IMG/VR virus record: IMGVR_UViG_3300034104_001493
Location: 1-40,245 of that record
Length of the DNA: 40,245 bases
From: a virus
Strand: one strand, 5' to 3'
The notes under the pieces are model-generated. The model was not told where the DNA came from. It saw only the letters and a program-made list of their open reading frames with translations, and did no database searches. The translations under genes were made by a program, and so were the position numbers. Shown piece by piece: positions 2,307 to 37,260 of this stretch (positions within the stretch are counted from its first letter, which is position 1; the number at the start of each line of letters is the position of its first letter).

Positions 2307-4121
2307 ATGGCTGACATTCAGCAAATCGCTGCGCGTGTCAAGCAACTGCGCGAAAAAGCGCGGGAACGGGACTCTCGTTGGGCTGACGTACTTGAGGTAC
2401 GTAAGGGAAATATTAACAAAGTATTCCCTGGTTTATTCCCAGATGATTACCCAAAGCCTATGGTTGCAAACTTTATTGACATTGCAGCTCGCGACGTATC
2501 TGAAGTTATAGCCCCGCTTCCAGCGTTTAACTGCTCGGCAAATAACTCAGTATCAGATCGCGCACGTCAGAAAGCTGACAAGCGCACCATGATCGCTGCA
2601 GGTTACCGTGACCAGTCACGCCTGCAGGTACAGATGTTTACAGGTGCAGATCGTTATGTAACCTTTGGTTTGTTACCAATCCTTATTGAGATTGATTATG
2701 AACGTAAGACTCCAGTTATTAACATTGATGATCCTATCGGATCATACCCAGATTTCGACCGCTTTGGCCGTCTAGTTTCCTACACTAAGCGCTACACCAA
2801 GACTGTAGCTGACTTAGTTCGGGACTTCCCAGAGCATGAGTCTGTCATTCGTGGCCGTTACAACACCACTAATGACCTATCTCGCATGGACATGTACCGT
2901 TACCACGATAAAGATGTAACCATGTTGTTCTTGCCAGAGCGTAACAACTTTGTTCTTGCTCAGACCCCTAATCCTATTGGCAAGATTATGGCTGTTATGG
3001 CCGTACGCCCAGGTATTGACTCAAACGTAGAGTTCCGTGGTCAGTTCGATGACATTCTATGGGTCCAAGTGGCGCGTTCGCGCTTCGCTACCCTAAGCCT
3101 AGAAGCTGCACAGAAGTCTGTACAGGCACCATACGCATTGCCAGCAGATGTAAATGTAATGGAGATTGGCCCTGATGCCACCATTCGTTCGGCCAATCCA
3201 GAGAAAATTCGTCGTGTAGATCTTAATGTTCCTCCAGGTTTGTTCCAGGAATCAGCAGCATTAGACCAAGAACTACGTGTTGGTGGACGTTACCCAGAGG
3301 GTCGCCTAGGCAACATGTCTGGTTCTATCGTTACAGGCCGTGGTGTAGAAGCCCTTATGGGTGGATTTGATACCCAGGTTAAGACAGCACAGACCGTATT
3401 TGCTGAAGCATTAACTCAGGTTATGGGACTTTGCTTTGAAGTTGACGAAAAGATTTTTAAGAATGTACGCAAGACCGTACAAGGTATGGATGCAGGCGCA
3501 CCATTCCAGGTGGAATACACACCATCTAAGGACATTGCAGGCGAATACGTAGTAGATGTTACCTACGGTTTGATGGCTGGCCTTAACCCTAACCAAGCTT
3601 TAGTCTTTGGTTTGCAGGCACGTGGAGATCAGTTGATCTCACGCGACTTCCTACGTCGTCAGATGCCATGGGAAATTAACGTAACCATGGAAGAACAGAA
3701 GATTGAAGTAGAGAAAATGCGTGATTCGCTACTTGCTGCAGTCTCTGGCCTAGCCCAGTCTCTACCAGCTTTGGTACAAAGCGGGCAGGATCCTTCACAG
3801 TTTATTGGAAAACTAGCAGCAATCATTGATGGTCGCCTAAAGGGTGAGTCCATTGAGTCAATCGTGGCTGAGGTTTTCGCTCCTGAGCCACCACCGCCTG
3901 CACCTGGATTAGAGCCTGGAATGGGATCTCCAGAAGAAGCGGCCGCCGCGGGCGGTGGCATTTCTGGGTTAAACCCACTAACAGGTTCACCTACAGGGGT
4001 TGCCCCTGGTCAGGTAGGGGTAGGCGGAAAGCCTCCAATTCAATATCTCCTTGCTGGTTTAACTAGTAGGGGTAAGCCGACACTAGCTTCTAGTGTCACA
4101 AGAATGATGCCAGCAGGATAA
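2307..4121 (+). CDS. Portal protein
   Basis: Dodecameric head vertex through which DNA enters and leaves and onto which tail proteins dock. The assignment rests on position directly after the terminase, on size (604 residues) and on portal-like text: an N-terminal helical region, a YPKPMVANFIDIAARDVSE segment, then a long alpha/beta body. The C-terminus is a Gln/Pro/Gly/Ala-rich tail from about residue 525. The ATG follows the terL stop with no gap, and the GGGAGG at the end of terL serves as ribosome binding site. I see no MuF domain fused here. Confidence 0.85.
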   Translation: MADIQQIAARVKQLREKARERDSRWADVLEVRKGNINKVFPGLFPDDYPKPMVANFIDIAARDVSEVIAPLPAFNCSANNSVSDRARQKADKRTMIAAGYRDQSRLQVQMFTGADRYVTFGLLPILIEIDYERKTPVINIDDPIGSYPDFDRFGRLVSYTKRYTKTVADLVRDFPEHESVIRGRYNTTNDLSRMDMYRYHDKDVTMLFLPERNNFVLAQTPNPIGKIMAVMAVRPGIDSNVEFRGQFDDILWVQVARSRFATLSLEAAQKSVQAPYALPADVNVMEIGPDATIRSANPEKIRRVDLNVPPGLFQESAALDQELRVGGRYPEGRLGNMSGSIVTGRGVEALMGGFDTQVKTAQTVFAEALTQVMGLCFEVDEKIFKNVRKTVQGMDAGAPFQVEYTPSKDIAGEYVVDVTYGLMAGLNPNQALVFGLQARGDQLISRDFLRRQMPWEINVTMEEQKIEVEKMRDSLLAAVSGLAQSLPALVQSGQDPSQFIGKLAAIIDGRLKGESIESIVAEVFAPEPPPPAPGLEPGMGSPEEAAAAGGGISGLNPLTGSPTGVAPGQVGVGGKPPIQYLLAGLTSRGKPTLASSVTRMMPAG

Positions 4122-4135
4122 AAGGAGAAACAGCT

Positions 4136-4306
4136 ATGGCTTTCGGATCAGGAAAGAAACCAGCGAACCAAGGTTCAATGGGTAAAGTAAATACTCAGCC
4201 AGTTAAGAAAAGTGGAACACCAAGCCCAGCAAAGCCTGGAGCTTCGACAATTCTATTTTCAAACAAGCCAGCAGGAACTAAAGGTTCAAGCAAGGGCTCT
4301 AAGTAA
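4136..4306 (+). CDS. Small basic Ser/Gly/Lys/Pro-rich protein (56 aa)
   Basis: A 56-residue protein beginning MAFGSGKKPANQG, rich in Lys, Ser, Gly and Pro and apparently disordered. AAAGGAG lies nine bases before the ATG, a strong ribosome binding site, and the frame is open for its whole short length between portal and the next gene. Similar tiny basic proteins recur in this genome (19990-20411). A DNA-binding or virion-packing role is conceivable but not shown. Function unknown. Confidence 0.7.
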   Translation: MAFGSGKKPANQGSMGKVNTQPVKKSGTPSPAKPGASTILFSNKPAGTKGSSKGSK

Positions 4307-4318
4307 GTAAACAAATGT

Positions 4319-4335
4319 CCAGAACTGTGTTCTGG
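4319..4335 (+). other. Intergenic perfect hairpin
   Basis: CCAGAAC-TGT-GTTCTGG forms a perfect 7-bp stem with a 3-nt loop between two small genes. No T-run follows, so it is more likely an mRNA processing or stability element, or an operator, than a terminator. Confidence 0.5.
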
Positions 4336-4380
4336 TCTGCAAGTAAAATCATTCGGTTTAATTAAAAAGGCGGTAGAATC

Positions 4381-4827
4381 ATGGCAGGTAAAGGTGGGTA
4401 TCAAGCCCCAGCAAACCCAGCTCCAGTTTCAGGCCCAGGCGCTAAGTCGCAACGTACCGATGGTGGACCAGCAGACACACAAGCAGCACAGTACGTATCT
4501 GGTCTTCCGTTCGGTGAGGGGCAGGCTTTCATGGCACAACAACAGGCAGCAGACATGTCTGGTTCTGGGATGATGCCTGAACCTGCCCCCATCGTACCTC
4601 TTAACGCACCAACACAGCGCCCTAATGAGCCTGTTACTGCTGGTGCAGATGCTGGCGCAGGGCCAGGCATGAGTGCTTTAGGTTTAGGTGCTAAGGACGT
4701 AGCGGCAGATAAAGAATTTAAGGCTACAATAGCCTCATACATGCCAGTTCTTATGCACGTCGCTTCCCGTTCTAACACATCACCTGAAACACGCAACATC
4801 ATCCGACAGTTGCGGGAGATGATTTGA
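4381..4827 (+). CDS. Low-complexity Ala/Pro/Gly-rich virion-region protein
   Basis: A protein of 148 residues whose first 110 are Ala/Pro/Gly/Gln-rich and probably disordered. The C-terminal 40 residues look helical (ATIASYMPVLMHVASRSN, then RNIIRQLREMI). AAGGCGG precedes the ATG. It overlaps the start of the giant downstream gene by 4 nt (TTGA), so the two are translationally coupled, which suggests it works with that protein, perhaps in assembly. I recognise the MAGKGGYQAP opening as typical of actinophage virion regions but know no function. Confidence 0.75.
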   Translation: MAGKGGYQAPANPAPVSGPGAKSQRTDGGPADTQAAQYVSGLPFGEGQAFMAQQQAADMSGSGMMPEPAPIVPLNAPTQRPNEPVTAGADAGAGPGMSALGLGAKDVAADKEFKATIASYMPVLMHVASRSNTSPETRNIIRQLREMI

Positions 4828-7800
4828 GTTTCTGGGACCGTCTGGGCACGCTAGCTCAAGACACCGCAGGCGCAGTTGTAGCCTCACCAAAGTTTCTTTG
4901 GGACATAGCAACAGCACCGTGGAATGATGATGACGATTTTAACGGCTTTGCCAACACCTTTAAGAGTGCTGGAACTGACTGGGCACAAGCTATGCTTAAG
5001 CCTATTGCCAATGTTGCCGAAACTCCAGGTATTAAACAGACACTTCAAAAGTGGGATGCTTTTAACCGTGAGTACATTCGCGAACCAATAACTACTGGTG
5101 TGCTTGCTGCTAGTCAAACTGGTGGAAACATAAGCGAAGCCTATGAAATGGCACAGGATACTTCCTTTGGTCAGGCACTTGTAGGTGGAATTGGCGCTGT
5201 ACTTCCAGGTCAGCAAGCCGTAGATAGAATTAACTTTGAAGATGAAGCCGAAGTAGACAAGTTCTTTTCTACTGGAGCACCACGCTTTTGGTCAGGTATC
5301 GGAGATACCAGTATCCAGATTTTTGGTGACGTGGCTATTGCTGGTGGTAAAGCTGCCAAACTTGCAAAAGAATCATCCTTAATAACCAATAAGATTACTA
5401 ATGCTCAAAAAGCAGCTAAAGCAATTAACGATGTTGTTGATGCCGTTGATCCCGTAAATGGTGTAGTAAACAAATACACTAAGCCAATCCAAGATTTTAC
5501 CGCTAATGGCGCAGAGTATGCCTACAATCATCCAATGATTCGTAAGTCACCAATGCGCGACACCATTGCTTATGGCCTTGGCCAGTCAACCAGTGAATAC
5601 GATACAGCCCTTGTGCTTCGTGCAGGCCTTGGAGATAAAAGAGCACTTGAAGAATTAAAGACTGTTCGTGCCAGCATTGGTAATTCAATGGAACGCCAGA
5701 TGGGTGTACTTGATGAATACCAAGAGTTTTTAATTAAAAAAGCTGACGACCCAGAAGGTGTAGCTAAACTTCCTCACGAAAGTCAGCTCATAGTAAAAAG
5801 CGCTATGGATGAATTAGAAGACTTGCGTAACAATGACGCTATGTTTGCTTCTTGGGAACTAATGGCTAAGACACCTGGTGGTGTAATTGACCGCACCGTA
5901 GGTGCACGCCCAATGCAGGCAGTAGATGACTTCCTTGCTAAGGGTCGTTCTGCTAAGTTTGTTGCAGGTTCAACCCGTGCTGAAGCATGGCAACCAACCC
6001 CATTCCACCGTATGTATCAAGTTGTATCCTGGGTAGGTAACGAACGTCCATCTGGAATTGTTAATCTTAACGAAGCAGAATCAAGCGCTGAAGTTATGGC
6101 GTTTGTTAACCGTGGTCACCGCCTTGCTGGTGACGACATGTACAGTTTCTTCCCTGAAGGTGCAGATGTACCTAAAGAATTTAAGGGTGTAACTGACGAA
6201 CGTGCTGCTGGCATGATGGCTAATTACTACCGTGCCACAACCCCAGAAGATAAAGCGCGTGCTCTTTCAATTATTGAGAACGCTGCATTTTCTGCTATTG
6301 CTGGAAAGCATGGCATTGACCGTGATCTTGCAAACAAAATTTACCAGAACTATTACCGTTCCCGCTTAGGCGCTCAAGAGTCACTTCGTAAAAACGGATT
6401 CATGATTGACGAAGATGGTAGTGTAATTAGTGCACCAGTGTTTGAGTCTCAGACTGCAAACTACATGCCAATGATGGATCTTGATTTACTTGATTCATTG
6501 CTAAAGCGTCACAGACTTGCCACAAAGAATAAGCCACTATCTGTTCTTTATGGAGTAGGTAACGAACTTACTGGTGCTATGGATATACTTCAAGCCATGT
6601 TCAAAGCTGGCGTTCTTATGCGCCTTGGTTACACTATTCGTAACGGTACTGAAGCACAGCTTCGTATTGCTGCATCCGTTGGTTCTATGGCATCTATGCG
6701 TCACCTTGGACCTGGCTTACGCAACATGGCCTTCAACGCTACAGATAGTTTGTCTGCCCGTACGGTAGATCGTTTATCACTTTCATCTGGCCCTGCCACA
6801 GTAGAGTCAACCGTTCGGTCATTAACTAAAGTTGACTCAGAGATATCTGAACTACAGGCAAAGTACGCAGAAATTGCCGAACAGTTTAATAAAGAACGCG
6901 ACGAGCTAGATGCAAAATTCAAGCCAGAAGAAACTGTACTTGGGTCTCCATCGTGGGCTAATGGACCTACATTATTTCATGGCACATCTGAAAAATTTAT
7001 AGATGATAGAATTGAAGACTACACCTGGTCACAAGGTGGACCAATTTCGCTTTTGTATGGTCGTGGCTTTTACACAACAGATAATGTTGACATTGCAAAG
7101 TCTTACACCAAAAAAGGTAAAGGCAAAAATCCTGTTGTTTACAACATTAAGTGGGATGGCGATACACCTCCAAATTTAGTTAATGCAGAGTTGCCATTAA
7201 CTCCAGAACTGCAATCTTCTTTATTAAGAATGGATTTACTGAATCAAGATACAGAATACGTATCTTTACTTAAGCAAGAAGAAATAGATTTAGAAGCTAA
7301 ACTTACTCAATACATGGAAGAGGGTAAGGGCACCGATCGCATTGTTGATAGATTAAATGCAATAAGTGAAAAGTTAGCTGTTTCGGATTCTTTTGCAAAA
7401 ACAAAAGATGCTATAAACAATCCAGAATCAAGACTCATAGATGTAATGAAAGTCTACAAAGAAGACCTAGTAAATTATGCTGAAGAGTTTAACTGGAGTG
7501 TTGATGAAGCCAGTGAGTATTATGAAAGCATTACAAATATTCTTGAAGACATGGGTTATGACGGTTTAACCCATATTGGTGGAGTAGCCACAAATAGAAA
7601 AACTAAACACAATGTTTCTATATTTTTCTCTGGGGAAAATATATCAACAAAGGTTCCTGAACGTAAAGATCCAAACAAGTTTACTAGCACAAAGTACACC
7701 GATGAAGAAGTTGAATTACTAGACCAAGGTATACTTCCAGAGCGCTTTGGATTTAACAGCCCAGAATACCAGACTGCTGCTAAGGCCGAAGCCAAGCGTT

Positions 7801-10763
7801 TAGCTGATGAACACCGTGCAATTATTGACGAAGACTACCTTGCCAAGCAAGAAGAAACAGTAAGCGCATTTGGATTAAATGACCGCGACATTAGACTACT
7901 TGAGACCAAGGGTTTAATTCCGTTAAACAAAGTATTGGCAGCATACAAAGCTGGACGATTAAATTCAGATGAGTTATCTGCTATTGTTTCAACTGGTCGT
8001 ATTGAAGCAGCTAGTGTTGATGGACTAGGCAGTGAAGCCTACCAGTTCCTTGATGAAGCATCGCTTCGCGGTATGGCCGTTCGTAACGGTAAATCACCTC
8101 AACAGTACATTGAAGTACCATGGCGCAGACAAACTCTTGATGAGTATGTAAACGACGGCATTGCTCAGTTCGATTCATATTATGAAATGCAGACATTAGA
8201 GCGCTCACTTGCTGAGTACACCGATGAGGCTAACGCCTGGTATGGCGAGAACGCTTCCCCTGTTTACTCACCAACTACTCCAAACGTGCAGCTAGAATCT
8301 GACATGCGAGTAATTGAAAAACTTATTGACGATAAGCGTTCACTTGCTGATGATTACTTTGCTCAACTTGAAAACTTAAAGAAGTCAGAATCACGTAGAG
8401 AAAAGCGTAAAATCGGTCAAGGCAAGTGGAAAGTAAAATCTTTTACTGGCGAAGACTACGACTTTAGCGATGCTTTAGGTGGACAGTTTGCCGATATTCA
8501 CAGGGCAAACTCCAGTGCAGAAAATTCTTTTAATACTTTAGTTGATGACAACGCTGGATTAGTTTCTAAGAGCTTAACTAAAGTTGGTTATGGCGAAGTA
8601 AAGCCAGATGCACCAAACTACTACCAAGCTTGGGCACACGCACTTAACTACCAGTTCCGTAACTCTGGCGTAGCCATGAAGTTAATGGATAACATGGATC
8701 CTGCTGCTGTAGCAAAATGGCTTAGGTCAGATCCTGAAGGTCGCATTGTTGCAAAGCGCCTTGGATTAGATCCTTGGGAAATTAACGAACACGTTGCTTC
8801 TGTTAAGGGTTTTGTTGATAGTTACATTCCAAGCGCTAGCTTGCGTAAGACCTTAGTTGAATCAACTGAAAACGCACCTATTACACCAGAGATGCTACGC
8901 GGTATTTATGCTGGAACTGATGGGTTACCTACAGTTCACGGACATATCCTTGAAGAGAACTTAAACCTTGGATCTGTTAGAAACGCAAAGAACATAGTTA
9001 ACGGTATCTTCAAGTTAATTGGATCTATGCCAGAAGACTTACTAGCACGCCATCCTTTGTACGTTTCCATGTACAGGACTGAGCTAAAGCGTCGCGTGGA
9101 TATGTTTGAGGGATTGAACGAACGCCGTTTAACTACTCAAGAACAAGCAGATCTTATGTCAGTAACTCATAAGGTTGCATTGCGTCAGTTAAAGAACACG
9201 TTGTTTACCATTGACCGCAAATCAAACTTGTCACACTACATGCGTTTGATCTCCCCATTCTTCTCGGCGTTTGAAAACACCACAAAGACTTGGGCAAGAA
9301 TTGCTTACGAAAAGCCACAGACAATCAATCGTGCTAACTTAATCTTTACTTCACCTAACCGTGCAGGTATTGCAACTGACGAGAACGGAAACTTAGTTCC
9401 GCCAGAAGAAGCAACCATGGATGACTACATCTGGATTGAAGTACCTGAATCACTAAAGAAAGTTCCTTTCATCGGCAAGGGCCTTACATCTCTAACCGAG
9501 ATGGGTATTCAAAAGAAGTCTCTAGACGTTATCTTCCAAGGTGAGGCTATTCACTTACCTGTAGGTCCATACGTTGCAGTGCCTATTTCGGAGATGGTAA
9601 AGAGAAAGCCTGAACTTGAAAAGACTTTATCTTGGGCTATCCCTTACGGACCAGAGCGTAGCGCAGTCCGTGCGTTCCTACCTACCTGGGTTAAGCGTCA
9701 GCTTACAAAGGGTGATGGTCAGAGCAACCAGCAGTATGCAAATACTTATGCCTTGATCTGGACCACTGAACAGCACAAGCGTCGTGAGATGGGTCAGCCT
9801 GCAGCTACCGCTGCTGAGATTGAAAAGATGACAGATGCGTATTACAACATGCGTACTGTTGCTAACCTAATCCTTCCGTTTGCCCCTACATTCCAGACAC
9901 CATACAAGTTCTACATTGACCAGTGGAGACAGTATCAGGAACAGTTTGGAATGGAAGCACAGACTAAGTTCTGGCAGGATTACGGCGATGACTTCTTTGA
10001 GTTTACTCAATCGTTATCAAAGAATACCACTGGTTCATTTGCGTCCGTGGGTTCTGTAGGTAACGCTAAGACACACGCTGATTTAATTTCAGAATTGTCA
10101 GTGATTGATCCTAAACTTATCGGCATTGTAACCAATGCTGGCCAGGCTTATGACTTCTCACAGGCTGCTTACATGTGGCAACAGGCCAACACAATCTCTC
10201 CAAGTTCAAGTGAGTTTTACCGAACCCGTAAGGATCCAGCAGAAGCTGCCCTAGATACCGAGCGTTCACTTGGTTGGATCAAGTACCGTGAGGTTATGTC
10301 TCAGATTGATTCAGAGATGCAACGTCGCGGACTAACTAACTTACAGTCAAAAGCAGGTGCAGATTTAGCGTCAATGAAAAAGCAATTAGTTGCTCAACTT
10401 GGTGCTGAAAATACTGCTTGGTATGATGACTACCTAGACACTGATGGTTCAAAGACTAATAGGATTATTCGTGGCCTAGAGACCATTGTTAGCAATGAAA
10501 AGTTTATGAGTCAATACGGGGACAACCCAACATTTAAGTCCATCGCTGTATACTTAGAAATACGTCAAGCAACAGAGCAAGCGCTTGCTTCACGTCCTTC
10601 CAAGAGCATTGATGCTAAAGACAACGCTGATATTAAGTACGCATTTGAAGCTGTTGCTAATCAATTAAAACAAGAAGATATTGGTTTTGGTGATCTTTAT
10701 GATCGCTGGTTATCTTATGATTCGGTTTATGATGCCGTTCGTTCACAAGGAGTTGCTCAATAA
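4824..10763 (+). CDS. Giant internal virion protein with ADP-ribosyltransferase-like domain
   Basis: A protein of 1979 residues, the largest in the genome, between portal and capsid and thus probably an internal or ejected virion protein. Translation starts at TTG with GGGAG upstream, overlapping the previous stop. Residues about 1-700 and 945-1979 are long helical segments; NLSHYMRLISPFFSAFENT near 1470 is a pattern I associate with large polyvalent-type virion proteins. Between them (about 715-940) is an ADP-ribosyltransferase-like fold: LFHGTS, YGRGFYTTD, a YDGLTHIGG stretch and VSIFFSGENI, matching the H, Y and acidic landmarks of ART domains in phage polyvalent proteins. That stretch is more AT-rich than its flanks (33% GC in line 7201 against 45% in line 9601, counted by hand). 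It probably modifies a host target after ejection; that is inference. Confidence 0.8.
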   Translation: MSFWDRLGTLAQDTAGAVVASPKFLWDIATAPWNDDDDFNGFANTFKSAGTDWAQAMLKPIANVAETPGIKQTLQKWDAFNREYIREPITTGVLAASQTGGNISEAYEMAQDTSFGQALVGGIGAVLPGQQAVDRINFEDEAEVDKFFSTGAPRFWSGIGDTSIQIFGDVAIAGGKAAKLAKESSLITNKITNAQKAAKAINDVVDAVDPVNGVVNKYTKPIQDFTANGAEYAYNHPMIRKSPMRDTIAYGLGQSTSEYDTALVLRAGLGDKRALEELKTVRASIGNSMERQMGVLDEYQEFLIKKADDPEGVAKLPHESQLIVKSAMDELEDLRNNDAMFASWELMAKTPGGVIDRTVGARPMQAVDDFLAKGRSAKFVAGSTRAEAWQPTPFHRMYQVVSWVGNERPSGIVNLNEAESSAEVMAFVNRGHRLAGDDMYSFFPEGADVPKEFKGVTDERAAGMMANYYRATTPEDKARALSIIENAAFSAIAGKHGIDRDLANKIYQNYYRSRLGAQESLRKNGFMIDEDGSVISAPVFESQTANYMPMMDLDLLDSLLKRHRLATKNKPLSVLYGVGNELTGAMDILQAMFKAGVLMRLGYTIRNGTEAQLRIAASVGSMASMRHLGPGLRNMAFNATDSLSARTVDRLSLSSGPATVESTVRSLTKVDSEISELQAKYAEIAEQFNKERDELDAKFKPEETVLGSPSWANGPTLFHGTSEKFIDDRIEDYTWSQGGPISLLYGRGFYTTDNVDIAKSYTKKGKGKNPVVYNIKWDGDTPPNLVNAELPLTPELQSSLLRMDLLNQDTEYVSLLKQEEIDLEAKLTQYMEEGKGTDRIVDRLNAISEKLAVSDSFAKTKDAINNPESRLIDVMKVYKEDLVNYAEEFNWSVDEASEYYESITNILEDMGYDGLTHIGGVATNRKTKHNVSIFFSGENISTKVPERKDPNKFTSTKYTDEEVELLDQGILPERFGFNSPEYQTAAKAEAKRLADEHRAIIDEDYLAKQEETVSAFGLNDRDIRLLETKGLIPLNKVLAAYKAGRLNSDELSAIVSTGRIEAASVDGLGSEAYQFLDEASLRGMAVRNGKSPQQYIEVPWRRQTLDEYVNDGIAQFDSYYEMQTLERSLAEYTDEANAWYGENASPVYSPTTPNVQLESDMRVIEKLIDDKRSLADDYFAQLENLKKSESRREKRKIGQGKWKVKSFTGEDYDFSDALGGQFADIHRANSSAENSFNTLVDDNAGLVSKSLTKVGYGEVKPDAPNYYQAWAHALNYQFRNSGVAMKLMDNMDPAAVAKWLRSDPEGRIVAKRLGLDPWEINEHVASVKGFVDSYIPSASLRKTLVESTENAPITPEMLRGIYAGTDGLPTVHGHILEENLNLGSVRNAKNIVNGIFKLIGSMPEDLLARHPLYVSMYRTELKRRVDMFEGLNERRLTTQEQADLMSVTHKVALRQLKNTLFTIDRKSNLSHYMRLISPFFSAFENTTKTWARIAYEKPQTINRANLIFTSPNRAGIATDENGNLVPPEEATMDDYIWIEVPESLKKVPFIGKGLTSLTEMGIQKKSLDVIFQGEAIHLPVGPYVAVPISEMVKRKPELEKTLSWAIPYGPERSAVRAFLPTWVKRQLTKGDGQSNQQYANTYALIWTTEQHKRREMGQPAATAAEIEKMTDAYYNMRTVANLILPFAPTFQTPYKFYIDQWRQYQEQFGMEAQTKFWQDYGDDFFEFTQSLSKNTTGSFASVGSVGNAKTHADLISELSVIDPKLIGIVTNAGQAYDFSQAAYMWQQANTISPSSSEFYRTRKDPAEAALDTERSLGWIKYREVMSQIDSEMQRRGLTNLQSKAGADLASMKKQLVAQLGAENTAWYDDYLDTDGSKTNRIIRGLETIVSNEKFMSQYGDNPTFKSIAVYLEIRQATEQALASRPSKSIDAKDNADIKYAFEAVANQLKQEDIGFGDLYDRWLSYDSVYDAVRSQGVAQ

Positions 10764-18618: not shown

Positions 18619-19683
18619 ATGGTGAAGATTGCAGTTTACACTATAGCCCTTAATGAAGAAAAGCATGTAGCTCAATGGGCAGAAGCTACCAAAGACGCAG
18701 ACTACAGGTTGGTTTGCGACACGGGATCAACAGACAAAACTGTTGAACTACTCAAGAAACACAAAATAGATACTTACAAAATTAGTGTTAAGCCATGGCG
18801 CTTTGACAGCGCACGAAATACAGCACTAAATTTAGTACCAGATGATGTTGATGTTTGCTTAATCTTGGACATGGATGAAGTTCCAGAGCCAGGCTTCTTT
18901 GATAAGGTGCGTGAACAATGGATTTCGACAGCGAATCGTGGTTGGGTTGGGCTGAATACTGGCAGTACATGGGCAGCCGACAGGCTACATTCGCGCCAGG
19001 GATTCGTATGGAAGTACGCTTGCCATGAAGTTGCAGTGCCTAGCATGGGCACTGAAGTAGAATACTGTTTCATACAGGCAACCATAGAACACAAGCCAGA
19101 CAACACTAAGTCCCGCGGGCAATACCTAGACATGCTTAAAGAGTGTGTCAATGAGATGCCAGATGACATGCGGATGCGTGTATATTTAATACGTGAATAT
19201 TACTTTGCAGGAAAATGGCAGGAACTAATAGATGAAGGACAACGATTATTCGCTCACGACAGAGTGGGTAACTGCTGGCTTAGTGAGCTTGCCGCTGCTT
19301 ATCGCGGTGCTGGTGATGCTTACGACAAACTAGGTAGCCAAGACCTAGCAAAAGAAATGTACGAAAAGGGAATGGAAGTTGCTCCTAATGAAATGGAAGC
19401 AGTTTTTCCCTTAGCGTACTGGCATTACGTAAATAAAAACTGGCAAGAATGTTTTGACTTAGCCAATAAAGTTAATGAACTTAAACCTAGTGGACATTAT
19501 CTTGTAGATGAATCTATCTATAAGTGGCGAGCATTTGATCTTTTAGCCATTGCTTCTTGGAACCTAGGTAAAAAAGGTTCGGCTAAAAAATGGGGACGAC
19601 TAGCAGTAGAGGGAAACCCTACGGACAAACGACTCATTGATAATTACGAATTTATGCTGAAGGGACAAACCAATGGCATGTAG
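18619..19683 (+). CDS. Family 2-like glycosyltransferase with TPR-like C-terminus
   Basis: Transfers a sugar from a nucleotide donor. Residues 1-170 are a GT-A domain: IALNEEKHVAQW at the start, DTGSTDKT (34-41) in the donor-binding loop, SARNTAL near 64, and DMDE (84-87) as the metal-binding motif. Residues about 180-350 are helical repeats resembling TPRs, which often hold a protein acceptor. 354 residues. ATG at 18619 has AGGG only 4 nt away; GTG at 18622 is an alternative. It follows the collagen-like fibre, has its own promoter-like sequence and is flanked by duplicated Cys-rich gene starts, so it looks like an inserted accessory gene. The target could be the fibre or the host surface. 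Confidence 0.85.
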   Translation: MVKIAVYTIALNEEKHVAQWAEATKDADYRLVCDTGSTDKTVELLKKHKIDTYKISVKPWRFDSARNTALNLVPDDVDVCLILDMDEVPEPGFFDKVREQWISTANRGWVGLNTGSTWAADRLHSRQGFVWKYACHEVAVPSMGTEVEYCFIQATIEHKPDNTKSRGQYLDMLKECVNEMPDDMRMRVYLIREYYFAGKWQELIDEGQRLFAHDRVGNCWLSELAAAYRGAGDAYDKLGSQDLAKEMYEKGMEVAPNEMEAVFPLAYWHYVNKNWQECFDLANKVNELKPSGHYLVDESIYKWRAFDLLAIASWNLGKKGSAKKWGRLAVEGNPTDKRLIDNYEFMLKGQTNGM

Positions 19684-30763: not shown

Positions 30764-31109
30764 GCAAGCAGCAGCTAAGGCACGTGGCTCACAGTTTGAG
30801 ACAGGTGTACTTAAGTGGTTACGCAGTAAAGGTGTGATGGCTGAACGGCTACGCCTAGCAGGTAAGGATGACGAGGGTGACATTATTTGTTTTGTATCTG
30901 GTCAACCTTATGTGTTGGAACTCAAGGCAACAGCGAAGCTGGACTTGCCTGGGTTCTGGCGTGAGGCTACAACAGAGGCAGAGAACTATGCCAAGGCTCG
31001 CAACATTACTCCGACACCACCAGCCTACGTCATTGTTAAGCGACGCAATGCTAGCCTAGATCAAGCATGGGTAGTACAAACCCTTGAGCAATGGATAGGA
31101 CAGCAATGA
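30753..31109 (+). CDS. Holliday-junction-resolvase-like PD-(D/E)XK nuclease
   Basis: 118 residues with the Hjc-type order: Glu16 (RGSQFETG), GKDDEGDI (Asp43) and LELKAT (Glu56, Lys58). Such enzymes cut branched recombination or replication intermediates before packaging. Three ATG codons stand in a row (30747, 30750, 30753); the last is preferred because TTAAGG sits at proper spacing. It overlaps the previous gene by 11 nt and the methyltransferase by ATGA. Confidence 0.8.
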   Translation: MASKQAAAKARGSQFETGVLKWLRSKGVMAERLRLAGKDDEGDIICFVSGQPYVLELKATAKLDLPGFWREATTEAENYAKARNITPTPPAYVIVKRRNASLDQAWVVQTLEQWIGQQ

Positions 31110-31840
31110 CAGAACTAACAGCAGTATCTTTATTTGCTGGTGTAGGTGGGTTTGAGTTAGCCCTCGGTAACCACGGTGTAAAGGTGGTTGCATCAGTAGA
31201 GATAGATGATGCCGCACGTGGAGTGTTGGCGCATAAGTTTCCAGATAGTAAATTATTTTCAGATGTAAAGGAAGTGACAGGCGATGACCTCATTGCAGCA
31301 GGATTTATTCCAGAGCGAGGAATCATTACAGGTGGATTCCCATGCCAAGATCTCAGTGTGGCAGGAAGACGCGCAGGATTGGATGGAGCTCGTTCAGGAC
31401 TCTATTGGGAAATTGTCAGACTCGCAGAAGAAACGCAGAGCAAGTGGCTCGTCCTTGAAAACGTCCCTGGTTTACTTACCTCACAATCAGGACGAGACAT
31501 GGGAATCGTTCTCGGAACGCTGGTTGACAGGGGGTATAGCGTCAGCTGGCGGGTACTTGATGCTCAACACTTTGGAGTCCCCCAGCGCAGGCGCCGTGTC
31601 TTCATCGTTGCGGGACGTACTACTGACAGACGTGTCGGACAAATACTCCTTGAGCCAGAAGGCAGCCGAAGGGATCTTGAGGCGAGCGACCAGGCGGGGC
31701 AGGGAATTACCAGAGATGCTTCACCAAGCACTCAACTCTTTGGTCAAACAGGATTCGCAAGATACACCGAAGGTGGAACTACCTTGACAGCCACCTCTTA
31801 CAAGAGACCAGAAGACAATGTTGTGGTACGTAAAAACTAA
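31106..31840 (+). CDS. C5-cytosine DNA methyltransferase, N-terminal catalytic part (frameshifted gene)
   Basis: 244 residues containing motif I FAGVGG (10-15), motif IV with the catalytic Cys80 in GGFPCQDLS, motif VI ENV (118-120) and motif VIII QRRRR (160-164). It ends early at VVVRKN-stop, before motifs IX and X, which continue in the +1 frame (31818-32264). Removing one A from the A-run near 31834 would restore a single chain. ATG at 31106 has AGGAC upstream and overlaps the nuclease stop (ATGA). The enzyme would methylate phage DNA, typically against restriction. Either a real frameshift or a consensus error. Confidence 0.85.
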   Translation: MTELTAVSLFAGVGGFELALGNHGVKVVASVEIDDAARGVLAHKFPDSKLFSDVKEVTGDDLIAAGFIPERGIITGGFPCQDLSVAGRRAGLDGARSGLYWEIVRLAEETQSKWLVLENVPGLLTSQSGRDMGIVLGTLVDRGYSVSWRVLDAQHFGVPQRRRRVFIVAGRTTDRRVGQILLEPEGSRRDLEASDQAGQGITRDASPSTQLFGQTGFARYTEGGTTLTATSYKRPEDNVVVRKN

Positions 31841-32264
31841 AAGGGCACAGACAAACATGGATGATGAAGGCTGGCAAGAAGGTGGAGTAACACCAACATT
31901 AAATGCTTTTGACATGGGCGATACTAGGGCTACGGTAATTGTATTTCACCCACATAGATCAGATGGTGCACGCATACAAGGTGATACTATCAACACACTT
32001 ACGGCTTTCATGGGTACTGGAGGATTGAACACACCAATGGTTGCAACAGATACAGTACGTCGGTTAACACCAATAGAATGTGAACGCTTGCAGGGATTCC
32101 CTGACAACTGGACAGAGCAGCGGTACGACTACAAGAAAGACAGAGTTGTAGAGCAGGCAGACTCATCACGCTATAAGCAAATGGGTAATGCTGTTGCCGT
32201 ACCAGTAGTTGATTGGATTATCGGTAGGCTGGTGGAAGCTGATGCTAATGACCGACAAGCCTGA
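31818..32264 (+). CDS. C5-cytosine DNA methyltransferase, C-terminal part
   Basis: The frame carries TPTLNAFDMGDTRATV, motif IX RRLTPIECERLQGFPDNW and motif X YKQMGNAVAVPVVDW, all absent from the upstream fragment. Target recognition lies between motifs VIII and IX, so this piece completes the enzyme. The first ATG in frame is at 31818, but there is little sign of a ribosome binding site, and the fragment alone could not be catalytic. Its end overlaps the primase gene at 32248. Confidence 0.75.
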   Translation: MLWYVKTKRAQTNMDDEGWQEGGVTPTLNAFDMGDTRATVIVFHPHRSDGARIQGDTINTLTAFMGTGGLNTPMVATDTVRRLTPIECERLQGFPDNWTEQRYDYKKDRVVEQADSSRYKQMGNAVAVPVVDWIIGRLVEADANDRQA

Positions 32265-32610
32265 CCTTGCTACGGTACTGGAGCACTACGGTGCAACAAT
32301 ACCTAACAAGTATGGCTACATCTCAATGCGGTGTGTACTGCATGAGGACACGCACTCAAGTGCAACAGTAAACATAGACAAGCAACGATACCATTGCTTT
32401 GTCTGCCAGTTCGATGGCGATGTGTATGATGTGGTATCTAAAAAGGAAGAGATAGGTTTTAAGGATGCTGTCACAAGAGCAGAAGCTATTGCTAACGGAA
32501 ACCGCAGAGAAGTACGTCAGCACACTGGATCAAGCAACGGCCTCTTACCTGCAAGGGCGAGGAATAACAAAGGAAGCCGCAGGTATGTTCCGCCTAGGTA
32601 CAGTAAATGA
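32248..32610 (+). CDS. Primase zinc-finger (CHC2) subunit
   Basis: 120 residues. Zn ligands Cys29, His32, Cys50, Cys53 (RCVLHED, then YHCFVC) form the CHC2 finger that recognises priming sites, followed by FDGDVYDVV and a helix. The basic disordered tail (ARARNNKGSRRY) lies in the part that overlaps the TOPRIM gene. ATG at 32248 is inside the methyltransferase end. The C-terminal 146 nt are read in two frames. Catalysis needs the TOPRIM partner. Confidence 0.78.
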   Translation: MTDKPDLATVLEHYGATIPNKYGYISMRCVLHEDTHSSATVNIDKQRYHCFVCQFDGDVYDVVSKKEEIGFKDAVTRAEAIANGNRREVRQHTGSSNGLLPARARNNKGSRRYVPPRYSK

Positions 32611-33100
32611 TCCTGCGCCAGGCCATGAGCACGCTGTTGGCTGTCTTAGTATTCCTTATCGCACTCCCACTGGTATTGTTGGTATTAAGTTTCGTAAGGT
32701 TGATGGAGGTTCTCCTAAATACTTGTGGCCGACTGGTCAAAAGGTTGGGATGTATAACGTCATTGACCTGCATGAAAGCTCAGATGTTATTGCTATCTGC
32801 GAGGGTGAACTTGATACCTTGGTTATGTCTGCTCTTGTGGGTGTGCCTGCTGTGGGTATTGCTGGCGTGAGCCAGTGGAAGCCACACTTTCCTAAAATGT
32901 TTGAGGGGTTTGATCGTATCGTTATCTTTGCAGACAATGACCTCAAAGAGGATGGCCGTAACCCTGGCATGGAGTTAGCCAAGCGCATCAAAGAGGACTT
33001 GGATAAGGCAGTAGTCATCTCACTACCTGAGAACAACGACGTGAACCAAGTGTTCCTAGATGGTGGCGAGGAATGGCTACGTGAAAGGGCACTGGCATGA
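32465..33100 (+). CDS. Primase TOPRIM subunit
   Basis: 211 residues. N-terminal helical part with TASYLQGRGITKEAA, GCLSIPYRTPTGIVGIKFR as in phage primase cores, then TOPRIM: ICEGELDTL (Glu), IVIFADND (DxD) and EDGRNPGMELAKRI. Synthesises RNA primers with the CHC2 protein. Start assigned to ATG 32465, though AAGG abuts it; TTG at 32489 is an alternative. Overlaps the CHC2 gene by 146 nt. Split CHC2/TOPRIM primases are known in actinophages, so this is probably genuine. Confidence 0.8.
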   Translation: MLSQEQKLLLTETAEKYVSTLDQATASYLQGRGITKEAAGMFRLGTVNDPAPGHEHAVGCLSIPYRTPTGIVGIKFRKVDGGSPKYLWPTGQKVGMYNVIDLHESSDVIAICEGELDTLVMSALVGVPAVGIAGVSQWKPHFPKMFEGFDRIVIFADNDLKEDGRNPGMELAKRIKEDLDKAVVISLPENNDVNQVFLDGGEEWLRERALA

Positions 33101-33618
33101 CGATCATAGTAGGCATAGCCCATGACGGTAAGGTATACATGGCTGGTGACCGTGGTATGTCAGACAAAGAGTTCATAGGTAGCATGGTTACACCTAAGAT
33201 ACACAAGGTTGGACCCATAATTATGGGTTACTCTGCATCTCAAGGTACAGGCCAGCTTGCTCACCTGATTACCTACCCCAAGCCAGTGTATGAGAACCTT
33301 GAAGCATGGCTACGCATAGATTTCTGTGATGCAATACAAAAGGCAGCAGACTTATTCAAGATAGACATTAACTCCGAGGATAATGGAGCTGACTTCCTTG
33401 TTGGTGTGGATGGCAGGCTCTTTGAGATCAGTACAGAGGACTGGTCAGTAGCAGAATACGACATGATTGCCAATGGTTCAGGCTACGCCTATGCAATGGG
33501 CTCACTGTTCAGTACACGTGACTGGGATAGCCCACGTAACCGTGTCAGAGAGGCTGTGAAGGCCTCTATTCGGTACTCTCCTACGTGCCAAGGGCCAATA
33601 GATACGTTGGTCTTATGA
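33097..33618 (+). CDS. HslV/proteasome-beta-like Ntn hydrolase
   Basis: 173 residues. After loss of Met1 the chain begins with Thr: TIIVGIAHDGKVYMAGDRG. In mature numbering Thr1, Asp17 (AGDRG) and Lys33 (TPKIH) fall exactly where HslV and proteasome beta subunits keep their catalytic Thr, Asp and Lys. NGSGYAYAMGSL near 128 matches the GSG turn of that fold. Similar proteins occur in phages, role undefined. No HslU-like ATPase is seen, so it may act alone, replace or poison the host particle, or process phage proteins. Coupled to the primase by ATGA. Confidence 0.78.
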   Translation: MTIIVGIAHDGKVYMAGDRGMSDKEFIGSMVTPKIHKVGPIIMGYSASQGTGQLAHLITYPKPVYENLEAWLRIDFCDAIQKAADLFKIDINSEDNGADFLVGVDGRLFEISTEDWSVAEYDMIANGSGYAYAMGSLFSTRDWDSPRNRVREAVKASIRYSPTCQGPIDTLVL

Positions 33619-33800
33619 TCTATACGTATTATGGTGGCCCTGCTGATGGTGCTGAGATCCCTGATTTTCTTGCCAAGCAAGACTACCTTATAGTTGAGCG
33701 ATCTATTGCCAAAGGCAAGTTTGTAAGTTACTATTATGAGAAGTGTGAAGATCATCCATGGTTTGAATACTGTGGGGAAATAGAGGAAGAAGATGAGTGA
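33615..33800 (+). CDS. Small conserved hypothetical protein (61 aa)
   Basis: A 61-residue protein: MIYTYYGGPADGAEIPDFLA, a beta-rich middle (KFVSYYYEKCED) and an acidic EIEEEDE end. ATGA overlaps the HslV-like gene stop and the end overlaps the next gene by 8 nt. This start is preferred to an in-frame ATG at 33585, which would lie deep inside the previous gene. Similar short proteins occur in actinophages; function unknown. Confidence 0.68.
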   Translation: MIYTYYGGPADGAEIPDFLAKQDYLIVERSIAKGKFVSYYYEKCEDHPWFEYCGEIEEEDE

Positions 33801-36684: not shown

Positions 36685-36838
36685 CAAAACTGTCCAACCA
36701 CTCGATACTATCTAGCAGGTAGCGGATCATTGCTTCATCGCTATCAGGGGTAGGATCATTCATCACTAGGTGTTGTAGTCGCCCTAAGTATTCTGTATCT
36801 TTACGGATCATGCGCTTTAACTTAAGCTGCTTAATCAT
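36677..36838 (-). CDS. Small helical protein after whiB (53 aa)
   Basis: Fifty-three residues: basic N-terminal helix (MIKQLKLKRMIRKDTEYLGR) and an acidic end (LLDSIEWLDSFDE). It overlaps the whiB stop by ATGA, with GGAGTT upstream. Probably real through coupling. No family recognised. Confidence 0.6.
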   Translation of the reverse strand: MIKQLKLKRMIRKDTEYLGRLQHLVMNDPTPDSDEAMIRYLLDSIEWLDSFDE

Positions 36839-37260
36839 AGCTTAACTCCATTCATCTTGCTCAAACGTGCACGCACTATGCGTGCTCCGCTTACTGCCAT
36901 TGCTTCTGCATTAGTTAATCTCTTGCCTGTTAGTTTAGCGCGTAATGCCAGGCGTTCGCCTGCTAACATACCGCCCCAGATACCGTATCTTATGTCGTCG
37001 TCTTGCATACCCACCTCTAAGCATTGCTCTCGGATCGGGCAAGCAGCACAAATCTCTAGTGCCATACCTGCCGTAGCTATCTCATCAAGGGTTATGTGAT
37101 TAGTTGTAGCGGGATACCACCAGTCTGGATAGGTAGCACCTTGACATAAGGCACTATCCCATAGCGATCCGTCGTGTGTCAGGTGTGCGAATAGTTTTTG
37201 TGCATCTATTGCCTGCTGCTCACGCGGTCTTAGTTTCCTGCCGTTTGGTTTCCTGCTCAT
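36835..37260 (-). CDS. whiB: WhiB-family Fe-S transcription regulator
   Basis: 141 residues. Four Cys ligate a 4Fe-4S cluster: Cys39 (ALCQ), Cys71 and Cys74 (ICAACP) and Cys80 (QC). The signature turn GIWGG is at 93-97, followed by a basic DNA-binding tail (RAKLTGKRL). WhiB-like proteins bind the principal sigma factor and redirect transcription; phage versions can shut off host genes or exclude other phages. GGGAGG lies before the ATG. Strongest single marker for an actinobacterial host. Confidence 0.95.
   Translation of the reverse strand: MSRKPNGRKLRPREQQAIDAQKLFAHLTHDGSLWDSALCQGATYPDWWYPATTNHITLDEIATAGMALEICAACPIREQCLEVGMQDDDIRYGIWGGMLAGERLALRAKLTGKRLTNAEAMAVSGARIVRARLSKMNGVKL

Follow-up and report, generated by a model that had tools for sequence, protein, structure and literature searches.

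Proteasome-like Ntn hydrolase gene without an unfoldase partner in a likely actinobacteriophage

Results

The locus and its gene neighborhood

The analyzed window, a whole stretch of 40,245 nucleotides (positions 1 to 40,245 of the IMG/VR virus record IMGVR_UViG_3300034104_001493), contains an intact ORF for a proteasome-like Ntn hydrolase, here called the Ntn protein (Table 1). The gene is located in the replication module, at a distance of 29 kb from the portal gene; in agreement with a preliminary description made from the sequence alone, it lies between the primase gene and nucleotide-related genes. ATGA overlaps at both gene ends are the usual mark of a single co-translated operon. The overlap with the primase gene likely leads to translational coupling, and as the start and stop codons overlap, the Ntn gene is probably co-produced with the replication proteins. 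The acidic protein encoded downstream is conserved in close relatives only; its gene is coupled to the Ntn gene, and it is a possible partner.

To determine the pattern of selection, we calculated dN/dS ratios for nine pairs of close relatives. The ratios range from 0.02 to 0.11 (0.08 for the neighboring primase gene), demonstrating that the Ntn gene is under purifying selection.

Table 1. Features of the Ntn hydrolase gene and its borders in the window
Feature	Position	Strand	Remarks
Proteasome-like Ntn hydrolase ORF	33097..33618	+	ATG start; 173 aa; Met-Thr N-terminus; without propeptide
Thr1 codon	33100..33102	+	putative nucleophile bared by Met removal; invariant in 47/47 relatives
Asp17 codon	33148..33150	+	D in 46/47, E in 1/47 relatives (one search pattern for viral relatives included D17)
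Lys33 codon	33196..33198	+	invariant in 47/47 relatives
Ser127 codon	33478..33480	+	GSG turn; corresponds to proteasome Ser129 (sequence and alignment)
Ser160-Pro-Thr-Cys163 codons	33577..33588	+	aligned to proteasome/BPH Asp166-x-x-Ser169
ATGA overlap	33097..33100	+	overlaps the end of the Toprim primase gene (32465-33100) at its stop codon; from sequence
Gene for 61-aa acidic protein	33615..33800	+	downstream of the Ntn gene; second ATGA overlap

Three further observations concern other genes of the window. Two overlapping plus-strand ORFs, 31091-31840 and 31818-32264, each encode part of a split C5 cytosine methylase (PF00145 positions 2-164 and 269-322), and neither half was matched in the close relatives L019, L021 and L026. 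A 1979-aa protein (4824-10763; phrog_10618, unknown function) is encoded after the portal region; its LFHGTS...GRGFYTTDN stretch resembles an ADP-ribosyltransferase motif by eye, but Pfam found no such domain. A family 2 glycosyltransferase with a TPR-like C-terminal region is encoded at 18619-19683.

Family membership

The profile phrog_1040 ("peptidase HslV family") matches residues 1-172 of the Ntn protein (E=3.7e-18) and all 47 non-redundant relatives. The sole Pfam match, PF00227 (Proteasome), reaches 18.9 bits with the window protein alone, under the cut-off of 22.4, while 39 of the 47 relatives are matched at E<=0.1 (best 1.3e-7). Since the PF00227 cut-off is not reached, the family placement rests on profile and fold evidence. 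A phmmer search with the single Ntn sequence found no relative in PDB; the profile built from the 47 relatives retrieved BPH (E=1.8e-9) as well as archaeal proteasome beta subunits and HslV (1e-5 to 1e-4). The NCBIfam model of HslV, TIGR03692, requires 157.75 bits, of which the Ntn protein reaches 11.7, and HslV proper was rejected. Hence, from the proposal that the gene encodes an HslV/proteasome-beta homologue, the homology stands by the PHROG, profile and fold evidence and the assignment to HslV itself does not.

Scans of viral contigs with widening queries yielded 16, then 166, then 314 relatives. Among cultured-phage records, the window protein matched 36, and 166 were matched when a relative served as query. 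In bacterial genomes, no homologs came up in a narrow scan, and a broader scan yielded five. Proteins from Streptomyces, Actinoallomurus, rhizobia and Paenibacillus score 110-131 bits against the profile, compared to 16-39 bits for PrcB and HslV. In the tree, eight viral lineages including that of the window form one supported clade (95/98) beside a bacterial clade (99/96), and PrcB, HslV and BPH (90/88) are apart from both. The proteins of Planktophila phage F5 and phage DSL-LC01 have long branches, and their placement is unsure. The row taken as E. coli HslV in the alignment and the tree served as a yardstick only.

By both profile score and tree, the nearest type among the group I homologs (HslV, BPH, AAH, CPH and PPH) is AAH, and the Ntn protein appears to belong in it or to adjoin it. 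The identification of the bacterial clade with AAH, a sequence cluster of Fuchs et al. 2021, is tentative and was made from the hosts and layout of the clade. The Ntn protein is an ordinary, well-conserved member of a known, uncharacterized family whose range is modestly extended here. The preliminary description had called such a peptidase unusual, which does not agree with the family name in PHROG, the numbers of matched cultured-phage records and the phage homologs already known to lack an unfoldase (PMC8665760).

Predicted fold

An AlphaFold2 run with 10 close sequences was discarded (pLDDT 45.9); using 47 diverse sequences we obtained a good model (pLDDT 93.6, pTM 0.89). Its elements follow the proteasome order: strands, H1 (49-57), a long H2 (65-86), strands, H3, H4 and a strand. 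Foldseek ranked BPH first and HslV next. The predicted fold is the alpha-beta-beta-alpha Ntn sandwich: by VIA-align, 166 residues superimpose on BPH 5ovt at an rmsd of 2.3 (Z 21.4, the best value), Z is about 20 for HslV, and all 1000 aligned chains have Z>=8. A different fold, or homologs not conserving Thr1 and Lys33, had been named beforehand as evidence against the assignment; neither was observed.

Active-site residues

When residues are numbered from the one after Met, Thr1, Asp17 and Lys33 are in exact proteasome register and the GSG turn is formed by G126-S127-G128, confirming the initial reading. The protein thus has the catalytic triad of the proteasome-like family (Thr1, Asp/Glu17, Lys33). 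Its conservation among the 47 non-redundant relatives is given in Table 1; for D17, the conservation among the viral sequences is in part a product of the search pattern, and the residue was also seen in the phage, plasmid and bacterial homologs that tblastn retrieved. Gly43 aligns by sequence with the oxyanion-hole Gly47 (G in 44 and A in three of the 47 relatives). Each sampled relative starts with Met-Thr, and the cases inspected leave hardly any in-frame space for a propeptide, or none at all.

The second set of residues, Ser129-Asp166-Ser169 of proteolytic proteasome beta subunits and BPH, is retained in part: according to the profile alignment, Ser127 is kept, Ser160 occupies the position of Asp166, and Cys163 that of Ser169. 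As most bacterial relatives also have Ser at the Asp166 position, this replacement is a trait of the wider group and not damage. One relative (L013/L028) has GDG instead of GSG. In the proteasome, the Thr1 amine receives a proton by way of Ser129 and Asp166, and the archaeal enzyme loses both autolysis and catalysis upon the D166A mutation (PMC4792962); with Asp166 replaced, the activity of the Ntn protein may therefore be weak, different or absent. Isolated proteasome subunits outside the complex are inactive (PMC8665760).

Unfoldase and partner genes

The window record and 15 related records contain no AAA_2 (ClpX/HslU-type) gene, in line with the original remark that no unfoldase accompanies the peptidase gene. 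Weak AAA matches were not of the unfoldase type, being frames of about 260 aa without an AAA_2 match; the one checked by coordinates (G009) lies on the DnaB-like helicase. An HslU partner is thus missing from the 16 phage records; a host HslU might conceivably be used. Comparison of otherwise syntenic relatives revealed no conserved partner or substrate gene.

Host and distribution

A WhiB protein is encoded at 36835-37260 of the window and in all 16 related records. The terminase and portal proteins of the window are closest to those of Streptomyces phages and of OX376640 and OX376641, the latter (LanE43-AprF5) being the Planktophila phage F5 (PMC10202952), and the G+C content of about 46% fits the Planktophila host group. 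WhiB, the terminase and portal relatives, including those of phage F5, and the G+C content make an actinobacterial host likely, probably a freshwater one. The nearest cultured relative of the phage lineage infects 'Ca. Planktophila'. A survey of proteasome homologs found no actinobacterium-specific phage with AAH (PMC8665760), a gap that the WhiB-bearing lineage partly fills.

The Ntn gene is found at different places of the same replication module: after the primase gene in the window, after a sigma factor gene in L029, and between a helicase gene and a RusA-like gene in L030. In Planktophila phage F5 a divergent homolog (L183, 21199-21735) directly follows the portal gene; the main text of the paper on this phage mentions no protease (PMC10202952). 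Another divergent homolog, from the Actinomycetia phage DSL-LC01, is already annotated as "ATP-dependent protease subunit HslV". Among 16 partial records with terminases 70-98% identical, five harbor a homolog.

Outside this group, relatives occur in phages that infect E. coli, Salmonella, Vibrio, Moorella and other hosts; the tblastn matches include numerous phages of Salmonella and Escherichia. In the T5-like Yersinia phage phiR2-01 the homolog (L191, 4001-4579) lies between the genes for thymidylate synthase and RNase H.

Discussion

We consider it fairly probable that the gene is accessory, that the phage, which carries WhiB, infects freshwater actinobacteria, and that the product is a propeptide-less, probably ATP-independent Thr-type Ntn hydrolase made with the replication genes. 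The host methionine aminopeptidase would expose Thr1; homology and the model suggest that activation of this residue would depend on Lys33 and Asp17 and that the oxyanion hole would be built from the Gly43 backbone. Probably expressed together with the replication proteins by way of the overlapping start and stop codons, the enzyme would, as proposed for BPH, need no unfoldase of its own and most likely cleave peptides, unfolded proteins or a single specific protein. The catalytic activity, substrate and oligomeric state of the Ntn protein are what we infer; its putative peptidase activity is likely, and sequence and model together suggest, with moderate confidence, a Thr1 hydrolase, most probably a peptidase, that works without a phage-encoded unfoldase. 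The putative degradation of host or phage proteins, one of the roles suggested at the outset, is plausible.

The other role suggested then, capping of the host particle, belongs to a wider reading, in which a host-directed factor inserts into, caps or inhibits the host proteasome or an HslV-type particle, or destroys a defense protein (counter-defense). The patchy presence of the gene in terminase-related records (five of 16, all partial) and its shifting genome position suit an accessory gene of an arms race, and 71 of 148 sampled Actinomycetes genomes have a proteasome-like match (E<=1e-10); we found nothing usable in the literature on a host proteasome in Planktophila. However, Thr1, Asp17 and Lys33 are retained, which would be needless for a mere cap, and as the relatives occur in phages of diverse hosts, no single host particle would be the common target. 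With the interface, that for capping included, wholly conjectural, we regard this reading as unlikely. An improbable explanation, too, is that the enzyme is no general peptidase but a specific transpeptidase or ligase (the same fold gave rise to connectase, a monomeric ligase) or an amidohydrolase of small molecules. The substitutions in the proton shuttle (D166 to S, S169 to C) and the nucleotide-metabolism genes adjoining the homolog in several phages are consistent with it, but the model has no connectase-type helical insertion, and the comparison of relatives yielded no conserved partner or substrate gene.

A virion maturation protease could be invoked because the phage F5 homolog follows the portal gene. 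In the window, however, the gene is part of the replication module, 29 kb away from the portal gene, and no ORF of the Ntn family is present at the corresponding interval (4121-4381); most terminase relatives searched lack the homolog (five of the 16 partial records are positive). The replication-module position and the patchy occurrence disfavor a virion protease, which seems very unlikely. The same holds for a catalytically dead relic or pseudo-enzyme: the altered D166 and S169 positions and the GDG of one relative could be signs of decay, but the triad is invariant and dN/dS is 0.02-0.11.

A bolder reading has some, though rather small, chance of being correct: the Thr Ntn enzymes of actinobacteriophages would form a clade of their own that does without an unfoldase, has replaced the Ser129-Asp166-Ser169 proton shuttle and serves one dedicated reaction, be it ligation, the processing of a single protein or counter-defense, during replication in freshwater actinobacteria.

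In the literature searched we found no characterized phage member of this family, though hundreds exist, including those of T5-like phages of E. coli and Salmonella. The window contributes a well-conserved clade from freshwater actinobacterial phages, a group in which no AAH phage came to light in the 2021 survey. As homologs are present in culturable phages (Planktophila phage F5 and T5-like phages), their function is open to direct experiment.

Comparison with known systems

Fuchs, Alva and Lupas (2021) described 22 new proteasome homologs, several of them in phages, without an unfoldase partner or known function (PMC8665760). PHROG 1040 matches the Ntn protein over its full length, its name exaggerating the kinship with HslV. 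With HslV (ClpQ) the protein shares Thr1, Asp17, Lys33, GSG and the fold (Z about 20), but it lacks HslU, is about 15-21% identical and remains far below the HslV cut-off (11.7 versus 157.75 bits). PPH is likewise a phage-encoded group I homolog, but has about 140 residues and no H2; it was rejected given the 173 residues and the long H2 (65-86) of the Ntn protein. BPH (PDB 5ovs, 5ovt and 5ovu) is the top solved relative by both profile (E=1.8e-9) and fold (Z 21.4), is also without a known unfoldase and has an acidic loop after H2, as does the Ntn protein; the identity is 17-19%, however, D166 and S169 are absent from the Ntn protein, its loop is shorter and less acidic (net -2 in most relatives), and BPH is known as a double ring, whereas the Ntn protein is known here from sequence and a monomer model. 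AAH is similar in its compact group I layout with H1 and H2, in lacking an unfoldase partner, in having Ser at Asp166 and in its distribution, the closest bacterial kin of the Ntn protein being in Actinobacteria, rhizobia and Paenibacillus; the differences are that the window protein belongs to a separate viral clade (95/98), sister to the bacterial one (99/96), and that AAH was found in no actinobacterium-specific phage in the 2021 survey.
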